Made by a program: the position numbers and the translations under genes. A stretch of DNA of 64,000 nt from Sipunculus nudus (Eukaryota > Annelida > Sipuncula > Golfingiida > Sipunculidae): assembly GCA_026874595.1 (NCBI GenBank), contig CM049322.1, positions 54,761,886 through 54,825,885 of the forward strand, written 5' to 3'. Below the pieces are notes generated by a model. It worked only from the letters and a program-made list of their open reading frames with translations, was not told where the DNA came from and ran no database searches. This document shows, in pieces, positions 19,909 to 49,041 of the stretch. Every line of letters starts with the position of its first letter. Position 1 is the stretch's first letter.

Positions 19909-20015
19909 CTTATGAAAATATTTTCGTTCCAAGTTATTATAAGTTCGAAATAATAGATCATGTAATAAATAGAAAAGTGTTGTTAATAAACCAACGCTGA
20001 AAATATATTTTTTAC

Positions 20016-20630: not shown

Positions 20631-20665
20631 CTGCAAACAAACATATCTGTGACATTGGTCGAGTT

Positions 20666-25554: not shown

Positions 25555-28500
25555 TCACACCTTCAGCCTCAGGTCTGGTAAGGTCTGTTTCAGCTGCGTT
25601 TTAATATTTTTTGTAACAGGCTCACTCATGTTGTTATACATGAGATCTAACTCGTAAAGTCGTGACAGTTGTTGTGTCATGTTGAGTATCTGCTCTAATT
25701 CATCATCCAGGTGGTTTTCACTCACAATTAAGGTCCTGAGTGAGGGGCATGACTGGAGCTCGTCAGTCAGTTGAATGACGGACTGGGTGTCAGTAAGACC
25801 ACAGCGTCTCATGCCGATTATGCTCAGGTGGAGGAGTGATGACAGCTGCCGAGACAACTGTACTACACTGTCACTACCAATGTTATTGTTGCTAAGATTC
25901 AATACTTGCAGCTGAGACGTCATCGACAGTCGTGAGATACATTTGTTCCAGGCTTCATGTATCAGTATATATTGATTTGATGTATATGGTTTTATTTCAT
26001 GCATGTCATATACATCACAGTCACCAAGCAGCAACTGTCTGATCTCAGGCAGGTTGACGAGCCTCTCGCCTAGCTGCTCCACACCTGCTGCATCCAGTGA
26101 CAAGACTCCCATCTCCAGAACCTGCAGCCCGGGGGTGTACTGTAGGCCGTCCACTACAGCTACACCTTCACCACGTTCACCATAGGTGCATTTACATACA
26201 CGTAATTCACAGAGCAGGGGAAGACGCTGTAACTGACGGCTTAACGTCTCAAACACAACACAGTCAGCTGTGTTTTTATTTGTATAACTTACACCTCGCC
26301 GTTTATGGGTAACTTGTGTTCCTTTGAGATCAAGCACAATGAGATTTGGTGTGTGGTGTAGGTTTGCCACAACACCTCCCACGGCATTATGTTTCTTACA
26401 ATAAGGTACCCATAATTCTTTGAGCTCTGTAAATCTCCTCAATTGATTTCCTAGCTCTGTAAATTCAACCGACGTTACTTCGTTTCTGATAAGATCGAGT
26501 GAACGTAATCTTGCCGTGTAATGTCGGAGTCCCCTTATTACTGGTCTCACAGCATCCACGACATCACACCTACACAGACGCAGTTCACGGAGTTCACTGA
26601 GATGCTGTAGCTGATTAACAAAAACCTGGTACACAGTCTCATCGACACTGTTGCTCATGTCATTTAATTCCTTAAAAACAGCTTGTTTTGCATACTTTGC
26701 CTTTAACCCAGATATATCAAGAATATTAAGTTCCGGCACTAAATGTATTTTATCTACAACGTGACGTACTGCATTCGTCTGATCAGACACACACAGTCGA
26801 AATACTTTAAGATTGGCAAGGTGTTTCAGCTGGTCACCAAGTATTGCAAACACCTCCGAGTCGGCCCTGTTACCAGAGAGATCTAGAGCTTGTAGTTGTG
26901 TTACGTGTTGTAGAGATCTCACAACCGGGATCAGCCCTCGTGGTTCATCACATTCACACAGACGGAGCTCACGGAGCTTGGTGAGGCTCCTCATCCTGGC
27001 ACCAAGAACCTGATACACATCTGACGTCACTTTATTACCAGTTGTCCTGCCCCTCACGTCTAGTACCTCATACGGCTCAGGGTTAGAAATGTTTCCCGAT
27101 ATATCTAAAATTTCTATTCCAAATGTGTGCCTGAGAGCGGTTATGAAAGACTCAGTAGCATTTTCGGTGTCACATTTGCATAAGTGAAGGGTTGTTAGAT
27201 TTAAAAACCCCATTACTTGTTCCGCAATTTGTCTGCAAACCTCCGGGGATACCAAGAGACGGCTCAGGTCCAAGACAGTGAGGTCACATGGTTTGTGTAT
27301 AACATCAGTATGCTGGCCACTCAGTATATCAAAAATGTCTCTGTATTTATTATAATATGTTGACTTAGAAGTCAGAGCGGTGATACAGTTTGTCTGACAC
27401 CATTCCAGGAGGTCCTCTTTTCCAAAGAATGGACAATTAACTACTATTTGATTTACTTTTAAGTCCTGACGTCCTGCAGTTTCATTCAGTTTTCTCTGAA
27501 TGGTTATATTCCAATCAGAACCACGTACCACGACATGTCCATCTTTGGATATTTTGCTGAACCATACTTTATTATCTCTCGGGATGTCATCAAAATCATA
27601 CACACTCAATGTTTCTATTTTAACAGCTTGGTGTTGCTTTCTTTCTATTTCCATTTCAAGGTTGTCTAAAAATCCAGTGTTTTGTTTATATATCGTGACT
27701 GCTTTCAGCTTGGTATTCTGCAAGTATTGAAGGTACCGCAGTTGTTCCACAGACGGCGCCCATATTCTGATCGTTTCAACTTGAGAACTGTCCATTGAAA
27801 AATAACGCTGAAGCACTTCAGAGGTATACAGATTATTGAATTCAATTTCTATTGTTTTTGGTAGAACAAAAGTTTCTGTGTTGATGTCAGATAAAAACGC
27901 CAGTTGAACGGCAGTATGTGTTTTTGTTTTGTCTCCTTCAGACCCTTCAATGATATCATGGATTATGCTTGTAATAATTTCTTTTCCTAATCCTTTGAGA
28001 AAAGTCAAGATCATCGTGGATTCCTTGAGTGCGTTTGGTGAATTGACAAAATAAAAGAATAGCTCTTGCCTAATTTTTGGATCACAGTTGACGATGAAAT
28101 AAGCAGTCAGAAATTCCTGCAATGTTTTATGCTGAAAATATATTTTTTTTCTTGTATGTTTTCTTTCTTTATCATTCAGTCTACCACTGGCATTCAGTAA
28201 ACCTAACTTTTTGGCCACGTCACTCAAGTCATTCAGAACAGATGTTGGAAAGCTTAGTTCTAATGTATCTCCCTTTAAACCATCAACAGCGACCTTTCCG
28301 ATTTCCATAATATACTGGTGAAATATGTCAATTATTTTACCTTGGTCAGAACGATTGTCTGGAGAAACAAATTTTATTTCATATCTTCTGCACACATACT
28401 TTACAAAATCAAAATAAAATTCGGTGACAGAATTCGCGATCCTCTTTTGATCCCGCCAAAGAACACACATGAGTAACAGGACAGCCGGGTAACAGCTTAA

Positions 28501-29079
28501 TTCTTTTCTGTCCTTATTTTCGGCAATCTCAGTTCTTAGATTTTCACCATCATCTGAATTGTGGAAAAATCGGTCCGTGTAAGTTTTCACCCCTTTGTCA
28601 GAAAAACCTTTCAGAATGACATGGGTCTTTGGGAATTCCTTTGGTGATTTAAAATGTAGTGATGGACGATTGCGTGAGGTAATGACCAGGTTGGTTTCCT
28701 TCAGATGATTTCTTTTAATAATGTTTGTAATATCCATGGCTGTGTCTTCTCTGTACTCATCAAGACCCTCAAACAAAAAAAGAATATGTCGCTGATTGCT
28801 TTCAATTATATTTACCATGCTCTCTTGGTTTCTTATATCTATATTTTGATGAAATGCCTCAGTTAGAGTTTCGTTTTGTCTGACATCCCTTAAGAAGATG
28901 GGGAGTACCAGCTGAAATTTCCCCAGATGTCTCTTAATATGTCTTGGTGTAAGAAAGGTTCTTCTCCACCAGCTGGCCAGAGTATACATCGCCCAGTCCA
29001 CTAACAGACGTTTTGCTAATGTCGTTTTCCCTGTCCCAGCGGCTCCTTCTAGATAAACACTATGCTCCAATGTACTCTC
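25555..29079 (-). CDS. NACHT-LRR exon of membrane-anchored NLR-like receptor (copy 3, intact)
   Basis: One large terminal exon, open for 1174 codons from the acceptor TTTTTTCTAG to a stop at 25555. It does not begin with ATG: the first codons after the acceptor are E-S-T-L, then EHSVYLEG, so it is spliced to upstream exons. Counting from TTG at 29070: Walker A GAAGTGKTT at residues 9-17, Walker B-like ILFLFEGLDEY at 96-106, sensor-like TSRNRP at 131-136. These define a NACHT/STAND ATPase. Residues about 595-1150 are RNase-inhibitor-type leucine-rich repeats, alternating LDLSGN-type and LRLCxCD-type strands, about a dozen. NLR proteins of this kind are innate immune sensors that oligomerise on ATP binding; the ligand is unknown. 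Family call is secure; exact orthology is not. Confidence 0.93.
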   Translation of the reverse strand, partial: ESTLEHSVYLEGAAGTGKTTLAKRLLVDWAMYTLASWWRRTFLTPRHIKRHLGKFQLVLPIFLRDVRQNETLTEAFHQNIDIRNQESMVNIIESNQRHILFLFEGLDEYREDTAMDITNIIKRNHLKETNLVITSRNRPSLHFKSPKEFPKTHVILKGFSDKGVKTYTDRFFHNSDDGENLRTEIAENKDRKELSCYPAVLLLMCVLWRDQKRIANSVTEFYFDFVKYVCRRYEIKFVSPDNRSDQGKIIDIFHQYIMEIGKVAVDGLKGDTLELSFPTSVLNDLSDVAKKLGLLNASGRLNDKERKHTRKKIYFQHKTLQEFLTAYFIVNCDPKIRQELFFYFVNSPNALKESTMILTFLKGLGKEIITSIIHDIIEGSEGDKTKTHTAVQLAFLSDINTETFVLPKTIEIEFNNLYTSEVLQRYFSMDSSQVETIRIWAPSVEQLRYLQYLQNTKLKAVTIYKQNTGFLDNLEMEIERKQHQAVKIETLSVYDFDDIPRDNKVWFSKISKDGHVVVRGSDWNITIQRKLNETAGRQDLKVNQIVVNCPFFGKEDLLEWCQTNCITALTSKSTYYNKYRDIFDILSGQHTDVIHKPCDLTVLDLSRLLVSPEVCRQIAEQVMGFLNLTTLHLCKCDTENATESFITALRHTFGIEILDISGNISNPEPYEVLDVRGRTTGNKVTSDVYQVLGARMRSLTKLRELRLCECDEPRGLIPVVRSLQHVTQLQALDLSGNRADSEVFAILGDQLKHLANLKVFRLCVSDQTNAVRHVVDKIHLVPELNILDISGLKAKYAKQAVFKELNDMSNSVDETVYQVFVNQLQHLSELRELRLCRCDVVDAVRPVIRGLRHYTARLRSLDLIRNEVTSVEFTELGNQLRRFTELKELWVPYCKKHNAVGGVVANLHHTPNLIVLDLKGTQVTHKRRGVSYTNKNTADCVVFETLSRQLQRLPLLCELRVCKCTYGERGEGVAVVDGLQYTPGLQVLEMGVLSLDAAGVEQLGERLVNLPEIRQLLLGDCDVYDMHEIKPYTSNQYILIHEAWNKCISRLSMTSQLQVLNLSNNNIGSDSVVQLSRQLSSLLHLSIIGMRRCGLTDTQSVIQLTDELQSCPSLRTLIVSENHLDDELEQILNMTQQLSRLYELDLMYNNMSEPVTKNIKTQLKQTLPDLRLKV

Positions 29080-29667
29080 CTAGAAAAAATAAAATTTATA
29101 ATTTTTGAAAATTTATATTCATCCATTAAGACCAATTCATTAAAAGAATACATTTAAATAGTGAGAAAGTCCCTTGATTTTATATTAAAATATCTAGAAA
29201 ATCATATTGAGACAAAATTTTGTGTATTTTGCTAATTGATCACTTTGTCAGTTATAGCCGGTTGAAAATCTAGCTTTATGAATGTATTTATTTTTAAACA
29301 GGAGTTTCTATGGTAACAAACTATTTGTATTCGTCATTCGGAGAAAGGCAGTCATCTGTTCAAAATGATTATTTCAATTCTCCAAACCAGTTCAATGCGT
29401 CTGTTCTACACTGTTTGACACTCAGAGCGGTCAGATGTTGAGAGTGCTCATAATCATATTTGTCTATAACCAGGAGAATTATAATTAAATAATTTTATAT
29501 TTCTAAGAATTTCCCGCCCAGGACGCTCTTTATTTAATCGTTCTACGATTAGCTTTGCGACCCAACAGACTTACTTGCGAGGCTGATGTAAGGTATGATA
29601 ACGAAAGCTTTTGTGGATGTCAGTCAGCCCAAACTCATTTTAAAATATAAGTTATATAATAAATAAC

Positions 29668-29882
29668 CTTTTTGAACATATCTGTGTAGAATCGTAAGTG
29701 CTCTTCTTCGTCCCCGAGCGTGGTGCTTTTTTTTTTGGCGAATACCAGATCCGTGTACAGCTCATCAAGCTCGACTCTCATGATATCATCATCCCATTCC
29801 CACAACTCTATTTCACTGTATTCTCTTAATATAGTATTAGCGACTCTACGCTGCAGGTCTTTTGTAATAATGCCAACATTGC
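29668..29882 (-). CDS. Pre-NACHT exon of the receptor gene
   Basis: 215 bp, acceptor TTTTTTATCCTAAG, donor AAG|GTTATT, entered in phase 1 and left in phase 0. That fits the G left over by the juxtamembrane exon and the phase-0 start of the NACHT exon. The 71 codons are open and non-random: they begin with the residues NVGIITKDLQRR, then WEWDDDIMRVELDELYTDL, a lysine run, and GDEEEHLRFYTDMF. Charged segments of this kind with an LYTDL motif lie just before the NACHT domain in many lophotrochozoan NLR-like proteins, as far as I recall. A coding-strand A10 run sits in the middle and is A8 in copies 1 and 2. The exon is cytoplasmic in the model. Confidence 0.8.
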
Positions 29883-30206
29883 CTTAGGATAAAAAAGAAC
29901 TTGCATTAGCTGATTTACCCAATGTAGGGATTATTTTTAAACAATAGCTTCCAGAAAGAAATTTTATTTATGGGAAATGTTCGATTATTTATAGTCTCCC
30001 TATGCCGTAGACTTTGGATTTAACTCTTCTTTTTCTCAAGCTTTAATTACACATCCTCTGTTAAATGGGTTAATGATTTCAAGCTACATTCTGATACGTT
30101 TATTCGTGAGCTTAATAGTTAAAAAGTACACAAGCTAATCTTTCTGATACAATCAAAACTATATGACTTGCATTTGTAAACAAATACATAAAGCGCCTCT
30201 GTGGCA

Positions 30207-30492
30207 CACATTCCTTCTGTGACAGACGCATTTCCTCAACCACTCACACCCGCCACCCTCTCCTTTTTACACATCCATTACCATCTCCCTACACACACAC
30301 GCTCTCTGACACACCCTTTCCCTCACACGAACCCTCTCACCAGGCACGAACACCCTCACACTCCCACAACCAGTCACTCCGAACACACTCTCACACTCCC
30401 ACAACCTCTCAGTCACCCGTCACCTCTCACTCACACCCTTTCACTCGCACCCCCTCTCAAACATACACCCTCTAACACACACCCTCTTCAAA
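30207..30492. repeat. CT/CA-rich minisatellite-like tract, copy 3
   Basis: Third copy of the intronic tract. It retains the length of copies 1 and 2 with a few substitutions, so the array has not expanded or contracted since the duplications. Confidence 0.85.
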
Positions 30493-30664
30493 AGAATTGG
30501 AATTATATAGTTTTGTATAGTCAGCACGCACATACAAATAATGGCTTTTCTTATGTATTTAAAGGAATATAGTTCTTTTCAAAACCAACAATTATTAAAG
30601 TGTATAAAAAAAATAAAAACATTTATCATGAATAAGTGTCTTTCCATCAAAATGAAAAACCACC

Positions 30665-31385
30665 TCTGATAAATTGTAGAAAGTTGACTTAGGAAAAAAT
30701 CACATTGTGCCAGACCAAGACCCAATAATAGTCCTGATATTATATAAAAGTCTATTCAGAATGGCTAACCTCACAACACAAGGCATCAGACCTCGCAATA
30801 TAATGGAGCCAGTGTATTTGAGACAATGCCTGCAAAGCTGCTAACAATTGCCCAGTGCATAAATAGCTCCAAATATTAAATATGCTAAATGACCTTGAAT
30901 ATGAAAGTCAAGGTCACTGGTTTTCGAGCACATCACAGAACATGGTCAAGTCAATGTGTGTAGCAATTTTGAAGAAAAAATATGCAAGGCTTAAGAAGTT
31001 AGCTAAATCACCAAAAATTACATACACAAAAAGGCTATATAAATTTTAAAAAAATCTAATTCAAGGTCGACCAACAGTTGATGCGTTCGAGCAAGTCATA
31101 AGGCGATACATTTAACAATGTAATAAGCAAATCAAATGAAAACTCTTGCCACTATCGCGCTAACGGGCGAGTAGGGTGATTTTTTTCCAGTATGAGCTGA
31201 TCCATAAAAGCAAAGGTCAAGGTCAGACAATGAAGAAAAAAAAAAAAAGGTTGTCTATCTAAAGCAAGATTGCGAGATACAAGCCTCTAGGAAAAGCGGA
31301 CGCGGACACGGAGCCGGTAACAAAAAAACCTATGGGGCGCTTAATTCAATCCGTTTTGAACATTGATGTACAATTTAAAGATAGG
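30665..31385. repeat. Intronic dispersed-type repeat with AAGGTCA words, copy 3
   Basis: Copy of the stretch at 7540-8260, with the same AAGGTCA/TGACCTT words and a variable A-run near 31240. Intron of the receptor gene. No coding potential seen. Confidence 0.4.
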
Positions 31386-31601
31386 CCCTTGTCATATCAG
31401 GATGTGGAATTTCATTAAATAAATTGAATACGTCCATGAATTATACATTGCTTTCCTCGCTCGATCGGTTACATACGAAGACTCCATACATAAAGTGTTA
31501 ACAGTGTTGAATATAAGTAAAAATCGTAATTCAAATAAGTGGAAACTGAAACATAGAGATAATAAAAGAGTCAGAGGGCACTGGTAATCTAGGCAACATA
31601 C

Positions 31602-31683
31602 CTTTCTCTGTCAATTGAATCCTGACAGAATGAGCCATATCTGTTTCTAGATGTTCCATATGTCTTCCTCTTCTGTTGTAAAA
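31602..31683 (-). CDS. Juxtamembrane exon of the receptor gene
   Basis: 82 bp with a consensus donor (AAAG|GTATGT) that leaves one base and so completes a glycine codon with the next exon. With the acceptor ACTAG at 31684-31685 the exon starts in phase 0 and encodes FYNRRGRHMEHLETDM followed by AHSVRIQLTEK, matching the phase-0 end of the transmembrane exon. The sequence before this acceptor is A-rich, which is poor. A nearby CAACAG acceptor (exon 31602-31672) has a better pyrimidine tract but would need phase 2 and an unseen small exon. The frame is supported by the join to the pre-NACHT exon. Confidence 0.6.
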
Positions 31684-31963
31684 CTAGTTTTTTTTTATAT
31701 GTAATTAAACATAAACGGTTTGCAAAAACGCTATAGACATTTGCTACATAAAGCCCCTGGCTAGGAATCGACACTATTATTTATTACTGTATATTTCAGT
31801 GTTTCTTTCTCTTTATTTAATTAAAAGTTAAGGTTTAACTTTCACTTAAAAGAATAGCAAAAGTAATTTTTAAGTCTCGTTTTATAGCTTCTTTTTCGGC
31901 TGCAGATTTTAGTCAATCAATTTTATGAATATTATGAGGGACTGAATATCGTTTTCTACTCAC

Positions 31964-32091
31964 GACTAATGGCTCTTTCCTACAACACATCATGCCAACT
32001 CGTTTTGTAACGCAGATTCCGATAATGCCAGCAAGAAGTATTGTAAATCCACAAGACACAGCAATTAGAATAACTGCTATCGTCCACCCTC
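31964..32091 (-). CDS. Transmembrane exon of the receptor gene
   Basis: Encodes a single hydrophobic helix beginning WTIAVILIAVSCGF and continuing TILLAGIIGICV, then a basic, cysteine-bearing stop-transfer sequence TKRVGMMCCRKEPLV. The positive charges after the helix predict the downstream (NACHT) side in the cytoplasm. Two acceptors, CATAAG and AAGGAG (exon start 32091 or 32088), both give phase 1, matching the lectin exon before it. The donor GTGAGT leaves phase 0. The antisense open frame on the plus strand is a shadow. Confidence 0.75.
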
Positions 32092-32198
32092 CTTATGAAA
32101 ATATTTTCGTTCAAAGTTATTATAAGTTCGAAATAATAGATCATGTAATAAATAGAAAAGTGTTGTTAATAAACCAACGCTGAAAATATATTTTTTAC

Positions 32199-32435
32199 CT
32201 GAACCATCATGGTAAATTGATGTCAGATTACTTTTTGTAGTCAGGTTGACTCTAATGGCATCACATATATAAGGCATTTTCTTTTGACAATCACTTGGCA
32301 TGAAATTCCATGATGATGATTGCACCCAAATAGAACCACATACGCCTGAATTCGGATGTTGACGTGGATCCCAGTAATCGTATATAATATCCTCTGAAAT
32401 TTTAATAGAGTTACCTTTAAATTCCCACCCGTTAA
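32199..32435 (-). CDS. C-type lectin domain b, second exon
   Basis: 237 bp, phase 1 to phase 1, donor TCAG|GTAAAA, acceptor GGATAG. Starting from NGWEFKGNSIK it carries YWDPRQHPNSGVCG, then SSSWNFMPSDCQKK and MPYICD, the usual last cysteines of the fold. In the long-loop position where sugar-binding lectins have EPN or QPD this domain reads HPN, and the later WND reads WNF (WNS in copies 1 and 2), so calcium-dependent mannose or galactose binding is doubtful. A short Thr/Asn-rich stalk with two possible N-glycosylation sites (NLTT, NLTS) leads to the membrane. Confidence 0.82.
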
Positions 32436-32567
32436 CTATCCATGCGAAATTCGATAGTAATATCGCAAAACGGGCATGTAGGTATGTTTATTAAAAAGGC
32501 CTGTACTGCTCTACTGCTTTGTACTGAATGTTAACAGGAGAAATGTTGGAAATTAAACCATAATAAC

Positions 32568-32813
32568 CTGGTGACCTCTCGTTGTCAACCCATTCCTCTC
32601 TTCTCAGACCAACCCAAAACCGATGACAAGTCCACTCTTTCTTCGCCAGCACTTCCATTACGTCTCGGTCTCTCACCAAAGCAAGTGTCTGGTTCCATTT
32701 TCGGCAGCGAGCCCTCGCCTCGTGCCATGTTCGTTGCTCACAATAATGCGCATAGCATATACCATTGTGACCAACACCAATGTGGGACAATATATCACGG
32801 GAACAATGGGAAT
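32568..32813 (-). CDS. C-type lectin domain b, first exon
   Basis: 246 bp, phase 1 to phase 1, acceptor TTTGTTTGCAG. Encodes DSHCSRDILSHIGVGHNG, then CYAHYCEQRTWHEARARC, and CHRFWVGLRREEW, the signature first half of a C-type lectin domain. The donor is probably CCAG|GTTATT; GAGAG|GTCACC six bases earlier in the protein sense would break the phase with exon 2. The continuation of the open frame upstream to 32928 runs into intron. Copy 3 has CRKWN and SHIG where copies 1 and 2 have CQKWN and SLIG. Confidence 0.83.
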
Positions 32814-33615
32814 CTGCAAACAAACATATCTGTGACATTGGTCGAGTTAGTTTCCGTACACGTATGTAGAGGACATTAAGTACATGACAAGGAAAAAAAT
32901 ATGGATTCCTCTTACAAATACAATACAAAGAAGCTATTCAAACACATATAAATATCCATTATTAGACAATAGCCAAATAAATGCTGTGAGAGAAGACCAA
33001 GTTTAACACAGAGCTTTTCATGCGCATCGGATACATTGAAATCAATTAATATATTTTAGATGGGTCCATTTTTTAAATTTAATTCATAATTTTGCTTTAT
33101 TAATAATACCACTGGACCAGTGACCTAAGTCGAAGTAAAACAAAAATAATAGGACTCTATAACCCTAGTACAAATTTATTCTACGTATATTCCTAGTCCT
33201 GTACAGTGTTAGAGGTGATGATACTTTGTACTTTCCAAATATTTTACTGTGCCATTTTTCGGTATCAATATGAGAACACCTACAGAAAATGGATTTGATT
33301 AAAATTATAAAGAAATGTTTATTTCCACCATTTACTGAATAACTCTTTCTTATATGCAATTATTTTCACTTGTCACTTTTTGCATATTATCTATTCTGTC
33401 ACTATAGATACTTTGGTGAAATCCCTTAATATTTTTTTTCACTCATTGCAAGACCAGTTCAGGTGATGTACATAATCGTATACTTATTTTAGATGCACAT
33501 TAGACAAGTAAACGATCCCTGTGACTATTTATGTTTGTCGATTGAACACGAAAGGTGAAGCGAAAGATGCGGTTACGACTCCGATAACGGCAACTGTCTA
33601 TGCTACCTAATTTAA

Positions 33616-33700
33616 GGCCGACATACATGTTGCGACCCGACTCAGCTCAACAGGTGAAAAGCTGTTTAGTTGAGTCGCGTCGTAATGTGTATGCGTGAAA
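33616..33700. repeat. Imperfect hairpin / MITE-like element
   Basis: Arms at 33629-33653 and 33662-33686 are complementary at about 20 of 25 positions around an 8-base loop, and complementarity continues weakly outward (ACATACAT / GTGTATGCG). Related words (GTTCAGTTGAGCC...GTCACGTCG) recur at 33768-33795. This suggests a small non-autonomous DNA transposon spanning roughly 33550-33830. Confidence 0.5.
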
Positions 33701-34149
33701 ACACACGACTCATCCGGAACCCAGTCGGCGTCAGGTTTTGGTTTATGGCAGTGTCAGAAAAAATCGTGTTCAGTTGAGCCCGTCACGTCGTTCAGAAGCA
33801 CAGTCAGCAAGCAATCACGCTACGTCTCTGGCCACATGAATATCTCAGTCATTTGATCGTCTGGGCCAAAATCATATGGTGTAGTGAAAGACATGATTAA
33901 ATTACATTAGCACTGTGTGCGCATAATATATGATTAGATCTGTATAGCCAGTGTCCCCTACGTAATGTGCATGTTCTCGAAGGTAGAATATATATTATGT
34001 TCATCACAAAACATCGAATAATATTGTTAAGATTTAAGTGATATTAAACGATTTTTTTTCAGCTATGGGATTGGGAGAATTGAAAGGGCGATATATAGAT
34101 ATATACATGTATACTAATAAATAAAATGACATGCATCAATGACTAACTT

Positions 34150-34320
34150 ATTGGGGCGAACTCCGGTTAGATAATCTGTTGGTAAGTAGTTATGGGGAGT
34201 TTCGTGAAAATCCATCCATGCCCTGGTAAGTTTGCGCGGAATTAGAGTTAACGGACGGACGGACGGTGAGTATTCCCATAATACTGTCGTCATATGACAG
34301 GCGTAAAAATAACCTCTAAG
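34150..34320 (+). repeat. Dispersed repeat with GGAC tandem tail
   Basis: A stretch with TTTCGTGAAAATCCATCC and GCGCGGAATTAGAGTTAACGG followed by four GGAC units. The layout, a conserved segment ending in a short tandem tail, is typical of SINE or LINE 3' ends in molluscan genomes. No box B was identified. Confidence 0.4.
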
Positions 34321-34457
34321 GCAAGTCTTTGTAAAATATGAATCGATTCAAATTTCCATGGAAAGAAATTTTCTCAAGAGTTGAGAATGACGTCATTTGA
34401 CATAAGTCAGTGCACACTTGCTAGCATTTACTGCAAATAAGCAAACATTTTACTTAC

Positions 34458-34574
34458 CCTTGAACGAACAGATACTGCCAACGGTTCTGTCGGAACAATG
34501 CCCGGTTTCGACACGGTTCGTTTTCTGATTGAACCAAGCGCAACCATCTTTATGCGGCACCAGGTGGTTAAACT
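34458..34574 (-). CDS. C-type lectin domain a, second exon
   Basis: 117 bp, phase 1 to phase 1, acceptor TATACCCAAG, strong donor AAGG|GTAAGT. Encodes EFNHLVPHKDGCAWFNQK, then NRVETGHCSDRTVGSICSFK, which fits the C-terminal half of a C-type lectin domain with its closing cysteines. No EPN/QPD or WND motif is visible, so canonical calcium-dependent sugar binding is not predicted. It joins in phase to CTLD-b exon 1 at 32813. Confidence 0.75.
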
Positions 34575-34830
34575 CTTGGGTATAGGTGAAACAGTTTTAC
34601 TTTTGAATACATTCAGTAATCATTTAAATATACGAAAACATTATTTTTTTTCTGGATGAAAATTTACATTTACTTTTTCATACTTTATTATCATTGGCTA
34701 CATACTGAAATAGCTTTATCAGTTAAGGATGTATATTCCTATAATATATGATAAGAGAGATAAATTTCTATTAAGGAAGCAACCTGATATAAAATATCGT
34801 TTTGTAATTGAGAAGTTTATCATAATGTAC

Positions 34831-35049
34831 CTGGTTTTGTACCGTCAGTCCACTCCCAGCTTGACATCATCTCCAATCTGACATTTATCCAAGTGGAATT
34901 GATCCACTTTTCCTCCAGTATTTTCCTCAGATGACTTGCTTTAGGATCGGTCGGTGTCTCAGGCAATCTGGCGCCTTTCTTGTCACAGCAGTGCTCGGCC
35001 TGCCACATATTTCCAGGGCGAGCGCATCGAGATCCACTCGTCGAGGGAC
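34831..35049 (-). CDS. C-type lectin domain a, first exon
   Basis: 219 bp, phase 1 to phase 1, acceptor ATATCAAAG, donor CCAG|GTACAT. Encodes PSTSGSRCARPGNMWQAE, then HCCDKKGARLPE and the segment TWINVRLEMMSSWEWTDG, the N-terminal half of a C-type lectin domain (cysteine, WxxAExxC, GA-L, W-W-DG). It has no counterpart in tandem units 1 and 2. The open frame continuing upstream to 35176 is intron read-through. Confidence 0.77.
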
Positions 35050-35476
35050 CTTTGATATTATGAAAAAAAAAATCATTTAGCGATATTAATGATATAATTT
35101 TACATGGTTTACGTTTTATCCAGACGAAGATATATTTATGAATGATACAAATCTTTAGTATATATACGAAGTGCATGCAAAATCGTATATAGGCCTACTG
35201 TAACATATTTCATAGATATCTTCTGTAACTTAGATGGAAGATACATTTAATTAAGATCAATAGCCAACATTAAAGATCATTGATCACAGTCAGAAGGTTT
35301 GTTTCTAGCAATAGCTGAAGTGGACGAATACCAAGGAGTTCTGGTGCAATGTTTTATGTGTAGCCTACACATCAATATTGGCACCTGACATGAACAAATA
35401 GGGTGAACCGGTACTCTCCCCAAAACACTCGCGTATGTTTGTGATGTAGACCTATTCTGTAAACGTTACTTTTTTG

Positions 35477-35500
35477 TATATATATATATATATATATATA
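35477..35500. repeat. TA microsatellite
   Basis: Uninterrupted TA dinucleotide run. Confidence 0.9.
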
Positions 35501-35804
35501 AATTGATTTCGAGTTTATAGATAGTCTTATGTATTTCGTAATACGACACAATAAGAAAAAATGGAGAGCATATTTGGTCTTGTGTCTTGTGATGCTAGAA
35601 TATAGTTTACTGATAAGCCTTGTATGTCACTACCCAATTTAAAAAGCCATCCAGATCTCAACATTCTCTCTTAATTATTTAGGCCCTATTGCTAAAATAA
35701 TGATTTTGTACAAGCTGAGGCTAGGTGTGATCAATAATCAATGTTTATTTTTATAATAATCATTGGTTTGTATAGGCTGGGAGTATATGTCTATACTAAA
35801 AATA

Positions 35805-36390
35805 AAAGGAAGGCCTGGACTCATTTACAAGCGAAATCGGGGGGGGGGGTCTTGGTGTTATGACCCTAGAGAGTATAATAACGAAAAGACTCCCTATCTA
35901 AATCACAGGGATGATCATTAGTTTTATCAACTTATGAAATAGAATGTCATCAATTGTAGGTAAATTTATAATTTATTTCCTAGGGAATAAAATTATATAT
36001 AAAATGAAAATTTATTAATAATAACTGCGAAAAGAAGTGGATGAAATGGGAGATGTTATAGCTCAAGGGGGCTTCGCACTTGATCCGTCGTTTCAGGTAT
36101 GGAGACTGGGGGGGGGGGGGGGGGGGGTCTGTCTAGGTTCATTAAAAAAGTTAAGGGCCCCCAAAATCCACTTCTACCATTGATGTATGACATAATGAAA
36201 TGAGTGCCAAGGGATCGAGAAACACCTGTCGTTAACAGTTATTGACCCTGCAAATGGGTCAGTCCAACCCGGGTTTATTCACATGCACAATAGAATTGTG
36301 ACATACCATAAGGCCGCTTTTAGGGCAGTTCGGCTGTTTTCGGCTGAATTTTAAGTCTTGGAGATAAGCAGTAAAACAGAATGTTCTATT
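35805..36390 (+). repeat. Dispersed repeat R1 with poly-G runs
   Basis: Starts near AAGGCCTGGACTCATTTACA and contains two poly-G runs (35839-35850 and about 36109-36127). It aligns along its length with R2 at 41388-41950 through shared words such as TATAATAACG, TAATAATAACTGCGAAAAGA and GGGATCGAGAAACACCTG. The copies are diverged and share orientation. Probably a non-autonomous transposon; the shared downstream GGCAGTTCGG segment may be its terminus. Confidence 0.6.
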
Positions 36391-36769
36391 GTTAAACTTC
36401 CCCACGTAAATATACCTTTTGCCTACCAAAATACAATACAAATGTCCCGAACTTTGGGGGGTAGATACTTTTAATAAATACTGCATGAAGGCTGTTTATG
36501 GTCGGGGTATGGAGAGATGTGTATAATATAAATATATCTGTAAAATGCCATTGATCTAGGGGTTCAACTCCTTGTTTTATGTCAATTATAAATTTGCACA
36601 GTGGAATTTGTTATATCATGTGCTGGGTACTGCATGTTGCCACTGGCGGTCAATGTCAAATGTCATCCAGGGACATGTCATAGGGTACGGTGCATGTGAT
36701 GGCTATATCTGTAACAGTTTTTCATTACGTTTATCATTAACACTTTGTCATTAAGAGATCTGTGTGTTT

Positions 36770-37090
36770 TGTCTATCTGTGCAATGAAGTTTAACCAAGT
36801 AGCCCAAGTAACTGGCAATTTTCCTCTAGACAGTACAGTACCCAGATTGTCCTCTTGAGAAAGAATGTTCTCTACAGTGTTATTCTTGTTAACCTTAGTT
36901 CCTGCTGTCCTTGGTCTGCCAGTCCAAGCTTGCCGATTAACTGAAAAAGTCCTTTCAAAAAGTTAGATTTTCCTATTCGCAGAACGTAGATTCCACCCCT
37001 TCTCTGAAAATTCTTTTGCAATGACGCCCCTCTCCATGCCTTTTCCATGAAGCAACACTTGATCAATTCCTTCTCGGCAGAGCTAAAAAA
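36770..37090 (-). mobile_element. Tc1/mariner-like transposase remnant
   Basis: Read on the minus strand, one frame gives GVIAKEFSEKGWNLRSANRK, a stop, then TGRPRTAGTKVNK and VENILSQEDNLGT. The order (helix-turn-helix with EF..K.W..R, a GRPRTA hook, then a VE..LSQED..GT block) is that of the N-terminal DNA-binding region of mariner-type transposases seen in many invertebrates. Stops and frameshifts are present and no catalytic domain follows, so it is a fossil. The open frame at 36872-37066 is in the wrong frame. Confidence 0.6.
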
Positions 37091-40000
37091 AAGTATTCTG
37101 TATACAGCAGGGCATTGAAATCAAAAGTGCTTTATTTTGTTTTTGGCATGGAAATATGTACATAGTCACTTAGGAGCAAAAGACCATCACACCTGTACCA
37201 TATGTGCTGTACCGAGATGACACTTGACATCGACCGCCGGGGACATCATATGGCTGTATACAAAGCATTGGATATAGCAAATTTCACTATGCAAATTTAT
37301 TCATGTCATAAACCAGGAAGTTGAACAGCTGGATAAATAAGATTATACAGGCATATTTATATTTTATACATCTTTCTTCTCTGTAACTACTAATACAGTT
37401 TTTATGAAATAATTAACCCTTTAAGTATAGGACTTTTTTTTCTGAATCACCGGTTATATTTGTAATCAACACTATGATGACAGACCCTGCCGCTGCCGAA
37501 GCTGACAGAGTATTGTGTGATCTGCAAATCGTGTCATGGGTGTATCGCCGTACAACATCTCTGACATATATAAGAAGTCGAGGTTTTATATTTAGATTGA
37601 ACGGTAATATTAAAGTAAAAATCTGTACCTGGGTAAAACCTATTTTGTTTATTTTTTTCCCTTTAATCTGCTGTATTGATCCTCCAAATTAATTGGTATT
37701 ATTTATGCATTTGATATGATTTTGTTACACATTTGATTGACTTTTAACGATGCACTTTAACCTTGGAACATAGTTAATATCCTAATTATGATTGAAAAAA
37801 CTGTCGTATGGCCAGATAAAATGTCAGTCAGCTCGCCTCTGCGAATAAAGTATTTACATAATATATGGATGCGGCACTGATAAAAAAAGAACCCTTATCT
37901 AAAGGAAAATGCAAAGTCGCCTCCGTCACCGGATTATTGAAATAATCGGTTAATGTAAAACGTGTTCAAATAGAACAACTTATTCCACAATGGTCATCCT
38001 AGGCAAAGAGGGGGAACTTGTAAACAATTCAAAGAAGAAATGCAGGAATTTTCTCGTAACCTGGTCATCTGATGAAAGAGAACTGATTTTGTTTTAACAA
38101 GAAGGTTCTATATATTCACATCTGGAATCGTTTAATACATAAATTTTGAAAAAAAAACTACTAAGGAACAACAACGGTTTGCGAATAAAGACCAAAGGAA
38201 GATATGTAGAAGGTAAATGCGCCTGCTGCTTTTGATTCACAAGGTTGATAGTTTTTGGGGATCGTTGTAAATTACCAAAGAACAGAAAACAAGAAAACGT
38301 GTCCTGTACAGTTGAACATATTTTTTTTCTTTTTCCAATTTAGTTCAGACAAGAATTGTATTAGAATGCAAAGTTTTTAACATCCATTCTGTTGCTCTAC
38401 TGTTAACCTATATCCATGTTCCTCTACCGGAAACTTATGCCGTGAAGAGTGTATTATTTCATCTTAATTGAGAGGAACTCTAAACTCGAAGGGCTCGTTT
38501 GATTGATAGCTATGATTGATAAGGCTGAGCATATGTTAGCTTCTGGTTAGACAGAAGACTATAAACTGCGCATGTGTGACTTTAGTGTGACTCTAGTGAG
38601 CAATGCATCGGGGCAATATATATGGTATGTAAAGTGAGTGCCTAATGGTAACATTAATATAATCCTACATTTACATTTTAAAAAGTGATTGTTTATTACC
38701 AGGACAATTGAAACGTCGTTTCTGATTTTCTTTATTTAGACGCTTGATAGGTTGGTTAAGGCAGTGCGTATGGTGTGTGACACTTCATTATCACAAGCAG
38801 GTTTAAAGGTACCTAAAATCCTACTACCCACCAAGGGGTCGCCTGATTTATTTGTTAGCTTAGAAAGGTTAACCAGATTTTATGTTGCATCAAGGCAAAC
38901 TGACATTTCAAAAGTGCGCGTTAGAGTTTTCCTTTAGCATGTAAAAAGAAGTGGAATTAATGGCATAATATTCCAATTTTTGTACTCTGATTTCCTTTGC
39001 CTGTGTAGATGAAAAAAGGGGGAAAATAAAACAAGAGACGATAATTACGTAAACCGCAGTTAATACCCCAAAATACACAATGATGATTCCTTGAACTATA
39101 TTTGAAACAACATGGAACAACGCTCAGTCATATCTCGGAATTATTCAGGGTTTTGTTCCTAGGATCGGATGTGAACCTTATATTTATGTATACATATAAA
39201 AACACACCTCGTCTCCAGAGGACTCATTCCTATGTGGGAATTTTAGATCGATAAGATGAACATTTTATCCTGCTTCAAGCCAACATGTTGACTTTTAATT
39301 TGCAAGAGTAATTTCATGGGTCATTTCAGGATAATGGTATAATAGACGGTATTCGAACATGATGTGAATTCAAGGCTCAGACACATTTGAAAATAAACGA
39401 GTGTTAAGTGAATAAAAATTACCTTCATAAATTAATTCGTTATTTAAACATAAAGCTGTTTGCTTTAATTGTGTTATATCTTGATAAATCATATATAAAC
39501 ATGAAAGGTCCTTTCAAATTAATTTGACCTTCAAATGAACATATCCATTTAAATACAAGGAAGTAAAGTATAAAAAAAAAACAAGCGGACGCCTTTCTCT
39601 AGTAGCAACATGTTGTCGTGCAATTTTTGTAGGAAACCTGCTTGAAAATATGAAGTTTTAAATCGCCCAACGCTGCACGCATATCAGTGGCCCTCACTTA
39701 CCGGCATGTTTCAAATAGAGTACAGTGTTTTATCTGTGTTAGAAGTTGGACTTAATGTCATCTAGGTCATGTTACAACATTCACAGAAGGGCGGTTTATT
39801 CATGGCCTAACTCGAATAGACCCGTCATGTATTATCCAATCAAAGTTCAACTGTACCTGTTGACAGGTAAATACAAGTTAACATTTAGTTTGTAGCAGTG
39901 GGTTTGTAATATATATGCAGGATAAACAGCAAACACACAGTGTGACATCGATTAATCTAAATGTTTCTATGTGATTTTTCTTCAGTTTATTTTCAGAAAC

Positions 40001-41387
40001 CACCGCTGCTAATCATGATTTACATTTGCACATATCACCTGGACATTGTACGTAAATAAAACACTTAAAGCCGCCTTGAACTTTCCGCCGGTAAAGATAT
40101 GGCACTCCGTATTGGACATGACGTGATGATCATCTTTCGCCTAGTGCTATTTACAAATATTGTTATGAAACAATAACAGTAATTTATGTTATTTACCGTA
40201 TCTTAAGGGTAACAAGTTATATGTTTTTCTGAGGCAAAACGGTTACTGTATGACCTTTAACCCTAAGCCAGTTATGAGATACGGATTGGCAATGTATGTG
40301 CCTTCATAATGTTGTGTTAGTTATTACTTTATAATTCACAAAGCAAGTAAGTTTCCAAATTTACTTCTAAACCCTATTACATCAATATAAGGTATTTATT
40401 ATCGATTTCTTGAGTATAATGAATCTTTTGCATTTTTAACACATTTATATTGCAATGTTAAGATTGTTTACATTTTCATTTATATATATATATGTCAGTG
40501 TCAGGAAGTAAGGAATGTTGTGCGTGTAATGAAAAGAGATTTCAGCAACGTTATACCAAGAGAAGTATTGTGAAAAGGTAGGGTTGTCAATCAGCAATAT
40601 CGGAACAAGAGGGATGCAGATGTCCAGATTTTGGTTGATAGTAATGTATTAATTGCGATATTGAAAATATCTGGATGTAGTGGCGTAAGCTGAAAAATAT
40701 ATAGTGTAGGTAAAGGGAAGGAGAGCCATCGTTTGTGTTTTTAAGGCATTTAGGTAACACGCGGCCGCTATTATAAGCATTCCCATCTTTGTCGGAACCA
40801 GTTGAGCTGTTTTCGGCGAGAGCGTACACGTTATTTAGAAACCACTCAAAATTCACTCCAAATGATATGTTCATTAAAATAATTTATTTTCATATCGGTA
40901 GGTAACTGCGGGAACCAGTGACGGATCCATGTGTTACCTGCTATATAGAGAACAGTTTATATATGTAAAGTAATGAGGAAATTTTGCACCTTTCTAAAAA
41001 AATATGAGGATATTCTGTTCTCAAAAATGTCTTTGCAGAACGTAGTCAAACTCTTCGTATGGCGGGCTAAAATATTTATATTTCTCGCAAATATGGATAT
41101 CAACTTGAATGTCCAAACATTGAATGGTTATAACATTTTGATTACCAATACCTTGAAAATGCCCACTTATATTTATAACTTGCAAAATAGCATAGTTTAA
41201 ATGCAATCCTCGTGGGAGTATAATTGATATGTTCAAGTCGCATATTAAATCTGCGTGCAATTTACCGGCTTCTGTGGTCTAAGCACCCCCCCCCCCCGAT
41301 TCAACAGAGCACAGATGGTGAGTTCGAGTATTAGACGAGGAGCAGTGAAATGTTTCACAACCCTAGCTGAGCTATGTAGGCTAATGG

Positions 41388-41950
41388 AAAGGCCTGGTGA
41401 CATTCACAGGCGAAATTGGGGGGGGGGGGGGGGCTGTCGGTGTTATGACCCAACAGAGTGTAATAACGGAAAGACTCCATCTCTTATTAAATCACAGGGC
41501 TAATCAGTAGTTTCCTCAACCTTTGAAATATAATGTTATCCATTGTGGGTAAATTAATAATTTCATATCTAGGGAGTAAAGTAATATAAAAAAATGAACA
41601 TTCGTTAATAATAACTGCGAAAAGAAATAGATAAAATGAAAGATGTAAGAGCTCAATGGGAGTCCCCTCTTGATCCATGGTTATAAGGGGGGGGGGGGGG
41701 GTGTCTAGGTCCATTATAAAACAGTTGCTGGGCCTGAAAAGGGGGGCTCCACTCCCCGGATCCGTTTCTACCGTTACTTTATGCTTACATAAGAAATGAG
41801 TGCAAAGGGATCGAGAAACACCTGTTGTCTTAATCCCGTGCTGCATGGAGGTTGATTAAATTGAGAATGACCATTAGGCCGGATTTTGAGTTTTGCCGAA
41901 GGCAGTTCGGTTGGTTTCTGTGGTATACTCACTCAGGTCGGAAAACACGA
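41388..41950 (+). repeat. Dispersed repeat R2 with poly-G runs
   Basis: Second member of the R1 family, same orientation, with its own poly-G runs (41419-41433 and 41688-41702) and GGGATCGAGAAACACCTG near 41808. Diverged from R1 by many substitutions and small indels, so the two insertions are old or were copied from different sources. Confidence 0.6.
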
Positions 41951-42939
41951 AAAATCAATCAAAATGATGTGTACATTAAAAATTTGCCTTTTGTTTTATC
42001 TTAAACTGACAGATTTAACCGAGAGATTATGTATTTTCTGAGAACACTACCATTATCTCCTAATTGCCCCATCCGGAACCGCACCATTGCCCCCCGCACA
42101 ATGAGCAAATAAGTGTCTCCGTGGTAGTTACATAATCATTAACATGAATAAGGATCTCTAATGACTACAAAGTATTCTGGATGCAAACGCTCATTCCCAT
42201 TTGATACTATGATGGGATTAAATTTGTTATGCTCCACGACATCACCTTATGAGGTACTAGGAATTAATACGTAGTATGTGTAATATCAAACGGCAATTGC
42301 TCTTAAAATTAATCTACTGAATAAATTCATCAAATCATTTGGGTGGAACTCGTACTTTAATTATAATCAATTTTCTAGGACATTTTATGTTGCTAGTATC
42401 AGGTGCGCACTCAGATATTTTATCATATGTTATCGGAGTAGAACTCTGACCTTTGGCATGAACCATAACATATTTATGAACTCGTATGCTTTCAATTCCA
42501 CAAACGAGGAGAATACTGCACTATTTGCACAATCTGTGACAAGTTCCCACTATTGGCTCAATCCTTGACAACAGCTTCCTTTCAAATACAATTGACATTT
42601 ACCACGGTAGAAAGCCAAACAACTTATTAGGAAGATCATTGGATGGAAAGGAATAAAGTAAACAGTTATGGGGCCACTTGACAAACAGTTATTGGTACCT
42701 ATGATAACGACACACCAGCAAACATTTTAGTCTAATTCTGCATAGGACGAGCATATTTTAGTATCAACTTGTTACTGAATGTTTGCTGTCAATAAAGACA
42801 AATACTAGACATCCCTTTGCAACATAATATCGACAAACCAAGCATTACCAGCTGTCTTTATCTGATAAATTTGAACATCCATGTTATGTTTATATGGCAA
42901 GGTCAACTGTCTAAGTTGATTTTTTAATATTCCAATACC

Positions 42940-43164
42940 TTATCTCTGTATAGGCTTACCAAAGTTTTCTACCCTCTCCAGCCACCGTGTAAAGATCTGG
43001 TGCATGTTTGATAAATCAATGCTATTCTTGATAACCTTTCCATATTTATTTCGCTCACTTTGAGACCAGGAACCTGATGGAGAGGTCCCTGAGCTGCTAA
43101 AAGAGGTAGAAATATTCGTACGTTCTAGTTTCTCACCTACTTTTTTGAGATATGACCAACACAA
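42940..43164 (-). CDS. Possible small exon, unrecognised
   Basis: Open on the minus strand in both segmental copies with the same frame and only a few residue changes (T/K, S/Y, W/C). The likely coding part runs from an acceptor AAAAAGTAG near 43135 to a donor TTTG|GTAAGC near 42963; both ends would be phase 1, the phase used by the other extracellular exons of the receptor. The peptide is Ser/Thr-rich then basic (EKLERTNISTSF, SWSQSERNKYGKVIK) without cysteines. It could be a stalk exon between signal peptide and CTLD-a. I recognise no domain. Confidence 0.3.
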   Translation of the reverse strand: MCWSYLKKVGEKLERTNISTSFSSSGTSPSGSWSQSERNKYGKVIKNSIDLSNMHQIFTRWLERVENFGKPIQR

Positions 43165-44227
43165 CTATTTCACCTGCAATATATCACCACGATTTTTGTT
43201 ATTTATATATAAAGTCTCATTAATTGCAAATGTACTAGTTGGTGAATGAACATTAACACTTGTTTGTAAGGAAACATACACAATACAATATTTTTACTAT
43301 GTGATGTTTAAAAGTACAGAATCCAGGATACATATGGCTAGATATCGATTCGGTATTTGTTGGTATCATAAATATGATATAACAACATCGTCAGCTGATA
43401 TACGCAATCCGCATCATGGATTTATGAAGTATTGTATGTAATTAAAAAAGTTGAATCTCGTGTTGTATTTTTTATTGTCAGACTGCTTATACTCTAAATG
43501 TTTCTACTACTTAATGAACAATAATATTAGCGGACAAAAATACCTTTCATTTAAATTATGCTGATGTTGATTGTTGCCCGGGTTTCGTGAGGTAATATAT
43601 TCGTGTAAAGATCTATGTGTATGTATTTATGCATGAAGTTAAAAAAATCCTGTAACGTCATTGTTAAATTTCAAATGAGCATTTCCTGCATTCGTGATTT
43701 CTAATTAATCAAACATTGTCTCTGTTCAGTAACTGATTGTATCACAGTTGCACCGGTCTCACGTGATCAGGTGACAGGAACTTTAAGTGTATGCCGGACT
43801 TACCAGAGCTCTGTCAAGAAACATGACAGGATCATATATTTGTTTATTTTCAGTTTATTTTGATTTTATATATACCTGAAGTATAGTTGTAAACAATATA
43901 TGTTTAAAATGAATGTTATGTATAAAATATGATAATGAAAGCGACCAGATAATAATATATCTGATATAATTTTTCCACATAAAACTCAAAATGTAACACC
44001 AACACAAATATAAGGCAAGTAACTCAGAGGCATAAATACAAACCCTTCAGACATGATCAGACAACATGGCGTACATGGAAAATGTAGTGCACAAAATGGT
44101 GTCTTAGATAAGGGAACAGAGCTAACATACCAACGGGCCTGGCTACCAACTGTTTGGCAATAGAATAATCCATCATGTTGATCTAAGACAAGCTGAAAGT
44201 TCCATGTAAACAAGGTAGGAAACCTAC

Positions 44228-44294
44228 CTTGGACAGCGACCACAAGGAAGTAGAATAACGCACACAAGAAGACACCTCCATCGGGTGGAAACAT
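44228..44294 (-). CDS. Signal-peptide exon, probable first coding exon of the receptor gene
   Basis: ATG at 44294 opens 22 codons, MFPPDGGVFLCALFYFLVVA then VQ, followed by one leftover G at a consensus donor AAG|GTAGGT. A short N-terminus, a hydrophobic core and a small residue before the end form a typical secretory signal. The phase-1 end fits CTLD-a exon 1, giving VQ-G-PSTSG across the junction. The intron would be about 9 kb, so other exons may intervene. The same exon in the other segmental copy (53292-53358) has a stop codon. No TATA box is evident upstream. Confidence 0.6.
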
Positions 44295-45020
44295 ATTTCC
44301 CGCTATTGTAAGTCACACCTATAGTTCAAATAAAGTTAATCTCGAAACCCGATGACACTTATCCCTACACACGTGTTCCGCCACTGTATTTATAACTTAA
44401 TAAGCAGTGTAAGTTTCTTATCTATATTTACCGTTGGACTTTGTGTAACCTTACGCCGTCACATAGAGGTCGAATGATTGAAAGCTTGGTTATAGGCCAG
44501 CTATAAATGATTGATATGTTAGTTTGTTTCGAGGTAGGTTGTTAAATAAAACTTACGCATGTGTCACTAGTTCACTCACTCTACCCAGTATATGAATTGA
44601 GTCGTTAATGTGGCAACGTTTTTAATTTTATTAAGCGCACTCCGTATGTTACTGTCAGGCAATCCTTTTATTCAGAACATCTGGACATTATTTATCATAT
44701 GAGATATCATGTGTAGTGCACTTTTCAGGTTCACTTATTAAATTTTAATACTTATTGATACTTCATTCAATTTGAAATTTTACATTTTGAAATTAATAAA
44801 AGTAAATCATATTTTATATTCATTAAAAGCAGATGAATACTGTAAAACATTTTCAGGAACAGTTAATAAAAATGGCATGTTTTTTTACACAGAGCTTAGC
44901 ATAAAATACCTGTAGATGATAAGTACACGTAAGAATTACACCCTGACCCTAAAAGGCTATATTTAAATATAAAATAACAATATCTGTTTGGTTTCACCAA
45001 GAAATCGTTATATCCTAACA

Positions 45021-45022
<2 letters not shown>

Positions 45023-45076
<54 letters not shown>

Positions 45077-45148
45077 TTTTACTGTAGTAACCTCTGGATT
45101 GAGTGGCAGTGTTCATAAATCTGAGCACGTGCTGAGCAAGGGTAAGGT

Positions 45149-45211
<63 letters not shown>
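45023..45211. repeat. Two TA microsatellites, segmental copy A
   Basis: TA runs at 45023-45074 and 45149-45211 separated by a unique stretch ending AGCAAGGGTAAGG. Confidence 0.9.
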
Positions 45212-45532
45212 TTTAATTTCATGAGGTTAACCCTATTCTAATTTCTGCTTCGAGGCAAACCTGTGACTCAGAAATTTGTATCGTGAGTCAATCATAGCAC
45301 ATGCAAAATGTTGGTCAAAGGCTTGATTGTAAAAAATATGAGTTTATGTTCTACATACGACAAAAAAATATTTAAGGGGATAAAAAATAGTAAAATTAAC
45401 TCTCTAAATCAAGTCACTGCTGAACGAAAAATAGAGCAAAAGAAACCAAGAAGGAAGCTATTTGAACAATTCTTTAGTATTTCTCATATAATAAGTTCAT
45501 TGTCGGTTATATCTACATATATATATGAAAAA

Positions 45533-45538
<6 letters not shown>

Positions 45539-45577
<39 letters not shown>

Positions 45578-45613
45578 CGAGAGAGAGATAGAGAAAGATG
45601 ATGGGGGGGGGGG
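45539..45613. repeat. GA microsatellite followed by poly-G, copy A
   Basis: A GA run at 45539-45590 with interruptions, then an 11-base G run at 45603-45613. The Arg-Glu repeat peptide across it is an artefact. Confidence 0.9.
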
Positions 45614-48600: not shown

Positions 48601-49019
48601 AGATTTTAAGATAAAACAGCTCTAGCCTACTCATGCATAGGCGAAAGTGTGAGTGTTGAGATAACATACATTTAGTACCTCAGCTAAAGTTTTATTTCTC
48701 AAAACACTAACTATATATCTAATATTTAATGGTTTGTGGAGACACCAACAGATATTATGTGTTGGTTTATAACATATATATTATGTGGTCTGTCAAACGT
48801 TTTGAAACTATAAGGATCAGAGTTTAATTAGAAAGAGACCAATATTCAAGGGCGAAATATTGCAATAATTGACGCTATTATTTTTGTTAGTCATAATGAT
48901 ATATCTGTTACCCAATATCTCCACTTCTGTCTGTTTAGTTTCTGTGTGTCAACATGATCTTTCCACTTCTCAGTTAAGTTGGAGACAGAGACAACTTGGA
49001 CAAATCCAATAAGAGCACA

Positions 49020-49041
49020 AAAAAAAAAAAAAAAAAAAAAG
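49020..49041. repeat. Poly-A run, copy A
   Basis: About 22 A residues; the matching run in copy B is 20 long. Confidence 0.85.

Follow-up and report, generated by a model that had tools for sequence, protein, structure and literature searches.

A candidate family of C-type lectin–NACHT membrane receptors in the genome of Sipunculus nudus

The genome of the peanut worm Sipunculus nudus (1,427 Mb in 153 contigs) contains, on contig C17, a 64-kb stretch (C17:54761886-54825885; hereafter the window, with positions counted from its first letter) in which lectin, membrane and NLR exons follow one another on the minus strand. From 44294 to 25555 the order is signal peptide, C-type lectin-like domain (CTLD), second CTLD, transmembrane (TM) helix, juxtamembrane (JM) segment, pre-NACHT segment, NACHT and leucine-rich repeats (LRR). 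Joined, the nine exons read through 1,606 codons with no internal stop:

44228..44294, minus strand: exon 1, start codon and signal peptide MFPPDGGVFLCALFYFLVVAVQ; donor GTAGGTTT, phase 1
34831..35049, minus strand: exon 2, first half of CTLD1, phase 1-1; Lectin_C match for CTLD1 alone
34458..34574, minus strand: exon 3, second half of CTLD1, phase 1-1; within the same Lectin_C match for CTLD1 alone
32568..32813, minus strand: exon 4, first half of CTLD2, phase 1-1; further copies lie at 20385-20630 and 9444-9689
32199..32435, minus strand: exon 5, second half of CTLD2 and a short stalk, phase 1-1
31964..32076, minus strand: exon 6, putative TM helix and basic stop-transfer segment, phase 1-0; weak acceptor, read by eye
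31602..31683, minus strand: exon 7, JM segment, phase 0-1 with acceptor 31683; acceptor 31672 scores better but is out of frame
29668..29882, minus strand: exon 8, pre-NACHT segment (ELYTDLVF), phase 1-0
25555..29079, minus strand: exon 9, NACHT and LRR, open frame of 1,174 codons plus stop

Pfam Lectin_C (PF00059) matches CTLD1 tested alone with 36.6 bits (cut-off 22.6) and the window ectodomain with 62.4 bits, in two stretches. Exon 9 matches NACHT (PF05729) with 64.0 bits (cut-off 26.7), its frame contains the P-loop GAAGTGKTT and the motif FEGLDEY, and the best sequence matches of this NACHT-LRR exon in the PDB are vertebrate NLRs (NLRC4 and NLRP3). For the repeats, LRR_4 reaches 28.9 bits on exon 9 alone (cut-off 27) and 25.9 bits in the full gene model, the remaining LRR models of the Pfam search all stay under cut-off on this exon, and a structure prediction of modest confidence (mean pLDDT 67.8, pTM 0.47) has alternating helix/strand repeats from about residue 686. 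NLRC4_HD2 scores 15.8 bits on exon 9, under its cut-off of 33.1, and the Pfam search found no death-fold effector domain (CARD, PYD or DD) in the window model. The classic calcium- and sugar-binding motifs of C-type lectins are EPN/QPD and WND; compared by eye with these motifs, CTLD2 of the window has neither and reads ...RQHPNSGVC....

The signal peptide and TM helix, both proposed in an earlier note on this DNA, were judged by hydropathy and exon scans and are seen by these means, the TM exon being read by eye. In the signal-peptide exon scan exon 1 has a donor score of 10.1 and a hydrophobicity of 2.84, and with both strands of the 64 kb scanned there were three matches, exon 1 among them. 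The window sequence predicts a membrane protein. Splice scores here and below are crude, and several paralogue exons were chosen by eye. The note had also placed the lectin and TM exons directly upstream of NACHT on the same strand, which is the arrangement found, and had joined all nine exons in compatible phases. The two joins that it singled out hold: 31602/29882 restores a glycine codon (G|GC) and 29668/29079 is likewise in phase. The claim for all nine survives in part, in that the open frame of 1,606 codons exists but the TM–JM join needs the poor acceptor 31683.

The same lectin cassette lies upstream of NACHT elsewhere in the genome. A first sample comprised 20 loci around genome NACHT matches, hand-picked as the top 18, the 20th and a lower-ranking one; tblastn with the window exons placed CTLD exons upstream and on the same strand in five of them (L009, L010, L012, L018 and L025). 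Eight further loci, hand-picked among lower NACHT matches before their lectin content was seen, served as a held-out sample. Exon profiles built from the CTLD-locus exons of the first sample were then searched against the window and the full set of 28 loci. Half of the held-out loci (L029, L030, L033 and L035) have all four lectin exons (CTL1a, CTL1b, CTL2a and CTL2b), ordered, on the same strand and upstream of NACHT. By the profile search the window arrangement is thus matched, in order and strand, at nine of the 28 other NACHT loci, with all four exon types in eight of these and three in L018; the other 19 have no CTL exon match. A chance run of neighbouring exons, which we had considered, we reject on the held-out loci. 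Gaps between CTLD2 and NACHT run from about 1.5 to 5.3 kb across the nine loci; L009 and L010 carry additional CTL exons on the opposite strand, and L025 a solitary CTL2b farther upstream. The cassette loci are spread over C17, C6, C9, C12 and C13. This bears on a misassembly that would have brought CTLD and NLR exons together: near-identical tandem units, as present in the window, are a typical site of assembly failure, but the arrangement recurs at independent loci on all these contigs, and we regard such an artefact as extremely improbable.

Intron phases recur together with exon order. In the L009, L010 and L025 models they run 0-1 for the signal-peptide-like exon, 1-1 for each of the four CTL exons, 1-0 for TM, 0-1 for JM, 1-0 for pre-NACHT and 0 for NACHT; the L012 model has the same phases without a signal peptide, since the locus edge cuts it. 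Each of the four models has an open frame and can be aligned to the window over the whole stretch from the first CTLD to NACHT. In the ectodomain of this alignment 13 cysteine and 6 tryptophan columns are invariant, and the cytosolic parts of the paralogues are 28-38% identical to that of the window. The Pfam search found Lectin_C and NACHT together in five of five models. L009 and L010 have an extra stalk exon of phase 1-1, and in L009 and L025 the final cysteine codon of CTLD2 is split across a splice (T|GT). Two choices were close: for CTL2b of L009 the donor used scores 5.4 and a phase-2 alternative 5.6, and for the pre-NACHT acceptor of L010 the scores are 5.4 and, for a phase-0 option, 5.7.

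A strict TM scan looked for a phase 1-0 exon with a basic tail, located after CTL2b and before the pre-NACHT or NACHT exon or, at loci without CTLDs, in the 2.7 kb upstream of NACHT. It found one in seven of nine CTLD loci, in none of the 19 others and in none of nine on the reverse strand. The two remaining CTLD loci yielded their TM exon to a looser scan (L012) and to reading by eye (L033), making nine of nine; the looser scan also picked out segments in L013, L026 and L027 that are repeat-like or weak. JM candidates of phase 0-1 are present in seven of the nine, and the JM exons of L010, L012 and L025 contain no methionine. A P-L-[LIKM] motif occurs in six of nine JM exons read (L009, L010, L012, L018, L025 and L033, not L035, L038 or the window) and might be a sorting signal. 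Order, strand, phases and TM exon conserved across divergent loci make one gene family the most likely explanation, rather than chance neighbours.

A close paralogue lies around a pre-NACHT exon match at C17:54587660, covered by L038 (the 4 kb upstream) and L039 (the next 2 kb). Among the 100 matches listed for this exon it has the highest identity (54%) outside the tandem units; matches on C6 and C7, at 51% and 52%, have slightly higher bit scores. L038 holds CTL1a, CTL1b, CTL2a and CTL2b exons with 43%, 68%, 60% and 36% identity to those of the window, followed by TM (1-0), JM (0-1) and pre-NACHT (1-0) exons, and CTLD1 to NACHT lie within 6 kb. The NACHT of L039 is 58.5% identical to that of the window. 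By segment, identity is 49% in the ectodomain, 48% in the pre-NACHT exon and 59% in NACHT. The ratio of nonsynonymous to synonymous change (dN/dS) is about 0.15 in the ectodomain and 0.24 in the pre-NACHT exon and is not computable for NACHT; these values are rough, since synonymous sites are near saturation (proportion of synonymous differences, pS, 0.73 in the ectodomain and 0.77 in NACHT), a CTL1b exon was truncated and the automatic pick used the JM option at 3474. As far as such comparisons go, the lectin and NACHT halves are long linked and the lectin half is under constraint. The L038 JM exon begins IWRRK... and ends LLEK|G, compared with FYNRRG... and LTEK|G in the window when acceptor 31683 is used. 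Its own acceptor (3456) is also poor: it scores -0.7, slightly below the 0.0 of an option at 3474 that shortens the exon.

Several observations weigh against reading these exons as single genes, foremost the TM–JM join of the window. The TM exon donor, GTGAGT at 31964, is phase 0, and the best-scoring nearby JM acceptor, 31672, requires phase 2 and hence shifts the frame; the TM acceptor is weak as well, with a score of -3.5 where the limit of the strict scan is 0. Because of these two acceptors the window copy could, on its sequence, be mis-spliced or decaying. Acceptor 31683 (AAACTAG), with a crude score of -5.3, retains with donor 31964 almost all of the JM exon in frame, other in-frame options relying on weaker donors or shorter exons, and we accepted it because the L038 JM exon resembles that of the window. 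At some CTLD loci the strict TM scan also matches in other phase classes (0-0 in four, 2-0 in three, 1-1 in one), so the scan by itself does not fix the TM acceptor. No JM candidate was found in L029 and L030 at the thresholds used, and L018 and L030 have no pre-NACHT exon match in the profile search. Between the window and L038, TM and JM together are poorly conserved (34% identity over 38 codons, dN/dS 0.60). Predicted CTLD–TM genes without NACHT adjoin L009, so CTLD and NLR genes do sit close together in this genome. Finally, none of 25 database matches listed (13, 2 and 10) combines Lectin_C and NACHT in one protein, which, as matching depended on shared short words and was for the most part scored on a capped set of candidates, is weak evidence of absence.

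Taken on its own, the window therefore permits two adjacent genes, and the claim that all nine exons are in phase is insecure: in addition to the frame shift at 31672, an ATG at 31659 within the JM exon stands in the NACHT frame (MEHLETDMAHSV...), and the TM frame reaches a stop ending at 31913 when the TM donor is unused. A CTLD-CTLD-TM receptor with a short tail would then be followed by a cytosolic NLR starting from an ATG in or after the JM exon, and stand-alone CTLD–TM genes are indeed present in the genome. Our early view was that the TM and JM exons are out of phase and perhaps belong to two genes; it was revised once the L038 JM exon had been compared. The paralogues speak for the opposite. 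Order and strand, with the short CTLD2–NACHT gaps given above, are kept in nine divergent loci; the JM exons of L009, L010, L012 and L025 fit both the phase-0 TM donor and the phase-1 pre-NACHT exon, and three of these four are the ones devoid of methionine. The stand-alone receptor differs in that the exon after its TM exon ends in a stop (by eye), and inspection of loci by eye, which was not systematic, showed no CARD-like exon separating CTLD from NACHT. Two genes are in our judgement improbable. We hold the CTLD-CTLD-TM-NACHT-LRR architecture to be real, and to be that of a gene family in S. nudus, with a probability of roughly 0.8. The single-gene reading of the earlier note thus gains support from divergent paralogues that retain exon order, strand and, where readable, intron phases. 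We are less sure that the window copy itself is correctly spliced and expressed than we are of the family architecture.

That the family is real and the window copy a decaying pseudogene, mis-spliced at TM–JM, is compatible with the single-gene architecture and bears on this one copy. Beside its weak TM and JM acceptors, it has two broken sister units:

1-10944, minus strand: tandem unit 1, CTLD2-TM-JM-pre-NACHT-NACHT exons; pre-NACHT and NACHT frames broken by indels shared with unit 2
10945-21885, minus strand: tandem unit 2, the same exons, with the same frames broken by the same indels

Units 1 and 2 share 99.7% identity, and each is about 98.4% identical to unit 3, from which seven exon indels common to both set them apart; CTLD1 exons and a signal-peptide exon were not found in either. 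Comparison of unit 3 with units 1 and 2 gives no clear sign of constraint (dN/dS 0.54 from 6 changes, 0.89 and 1.04), and as a test of constraint it was set aside for having too few changes. On the other side, the NACHT exon is intact across 1,174 codons, the signal-peptide exon is intact whereas its duplicate near 53358 carries a stop, and L038 can use a similarly poor JM acceptor with a matching start (I-W-R-R against F-Y-N-R-R) and end. Decay of the window copy seems to us rather unlikely.

The two parts of the proposed receptor also exist separately. L037 and positions 1-1600 of L009 contain, on the minus strand, to the left of L009 and opposite in strand to its gene, three CTLD cassettes. 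After each of the first two comes a TM exon, and after that one that runs into a stop (by eye); the third reaches the edge of the stretch, and no pre-NACHT or NACHT match was found within the 9 kb searched left of L009. Conversely, upstream exons of three NLR loci without CTLDs were tested for CARD, giving two matches under cut-off and one none, and CARD-like exons were seen by eye upstream in further such loci. Of the non-CTLD loci with a pre-NACHT match, 13 of 14 have phase 1 at the best pre-NACHT acceptor, as do six of seven CTLD loci. The lectin-NLR looks like a fusion of the two parts at a phase-1 intron; CTLD-TM exons probably took the place of a CARD exon set at the intron that precedes the pre-NACHT exon. 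On a NACHT tree of 29 rows (L038/L039 left out; many deep branches weak), the CTLD label needs five changes, at least two of them forced by well-supported branches. A single clade of CTLD-type NACHTs was not recovered, and the label is still clustered, with 6 of 500 shuffles as low. This pattern suggests repeated front-end exchange during NLR evolution.

One such gene would encode a type I membrane receptor with two CTLDs outside, one TM helix and NACHT-LRR inside. At the cell surface the CTLDs would bind ligands of microbial or self origin, clustering or a conformational change would lift autoinhibition by the LRR, and the NACHT modules would oligomerise at the inner face of the membrane. Because the window model has no death-fold domain, the signal would probably leave through NACHT–NACHT contact with the CARD-like NLRs of this genome, through JM adaptors or through internalisation. 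We are less sure of this mechanism than of the architecture, and the coupling of ligand binding by the CTLDs to NACHT oligomerisation, like function in general, is something that we infer. The combined proposal, a multigene set of lectin-NLR surface receptors in which tandem-CTLD ligand binding drives NACHT at the plasma membrane and in which CARD and CTLD-TM front ends were swapped on more than one occasion at a common phase-1 intron during NLR evolution, is one towards which we lean only slightly.

NLRs have mostly been studied as cytosolic sensors, and those of vertebrates (NLRC4, NLRP3) are cytosolic and carry CARD or PYD. The window gene shares with them NACHT and a C-terminal LRR, and has a CTLD-TM segment where CARD or PYD stands. 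Transmembrane C-type lectins, including the genes left of L009, share the CTLD cassettes and TM; the genes left of L009 differ in having no NACHT or pre-NACHT match in the stretch searched and a stop in the exon after the TM. Nearest among the tested precedents that we met for a surface NLR acting in phagocytosis is AjNLRC4 of the sea cucumber Apostichopus japonicus, which is reported at the cell membrane with two TMs, binds microbes and mediates phagocytosis (PMC8699970). It is alike in having extracellular binding domains, TM and an intracellular NACHT; its ectodomain is of Ig type and it has no LRR, in contrast to the CTLDs and LRR of the window gene (PMC8699970). Its relative AjNLR-new differs in that NACHT is reported outside (PMC13133943). 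TM-NLRs of sea anemones (PMC5094078) and sponges (PMC12909245) are likewise predicted at a membrane; those of anemones have 3-5 N-terminal TMs, and the available text of neither report describes a CTLD ectodomain. In Crassostrea virginica an expanded family also links an ectodomain, here Cys-rich, through a TM to immune domains; its core is DED–TRADD-N with variable C-termini, some of them STAND NTPases, and the ectodomain is not called CTLD in the accessible portion of that paper (PMC8195603). A C-type-lectin fold is also joined to NACHT in bacterial proteins, whose lectin-fold sensor is diversified by diversity-generating retroelements (DGR) (PMC10907252); we take this as a functional analogy and claim no homology of architecture. 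In the available text of a bivalve C-type lectin survey the word 'NACHT' occurs zero times (PMC10140915), and in the literature searched we met no description of a CTLD-TM-NACHT protein or of a tandem-CTLD ectodomain on a membrane NLR. Membrane NLRs being known already from sea cucumber, anemones and sponges, the tandem-CTLD ectodomain is the new part.

If the proposal is right, at least ten divergent loci set NACHT-LRR behind tandem CTLDs and a TM helix, that is, surface recognition wired into an inflammasome-type engine. The lectin-NLR family would then offer a testable case for switching NACHT from outside and for modular front-end exchange in the evolution of NLR repertoires.

Some features of the surroundings may be added. 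NACHT matches crowd on C17 (61 Mb), which holds at least 55 among the 99 matches listed for the 1,427-Mb genome, and another unit lies just left of the window, at C17:54757531. A duplication of about 8 kb (42565-50393 and 51687-59169) spans the signal-peptide exon; its second copy, near 53358, is the one with the in-frame stop. Retroelement-like frames on the minus strand, endonuclease-like by eye, lie beside each tandem unit, at 380-697, 1679-2026, 11324-11641, 12623-12970, 22265-22582 and 23564-23917.

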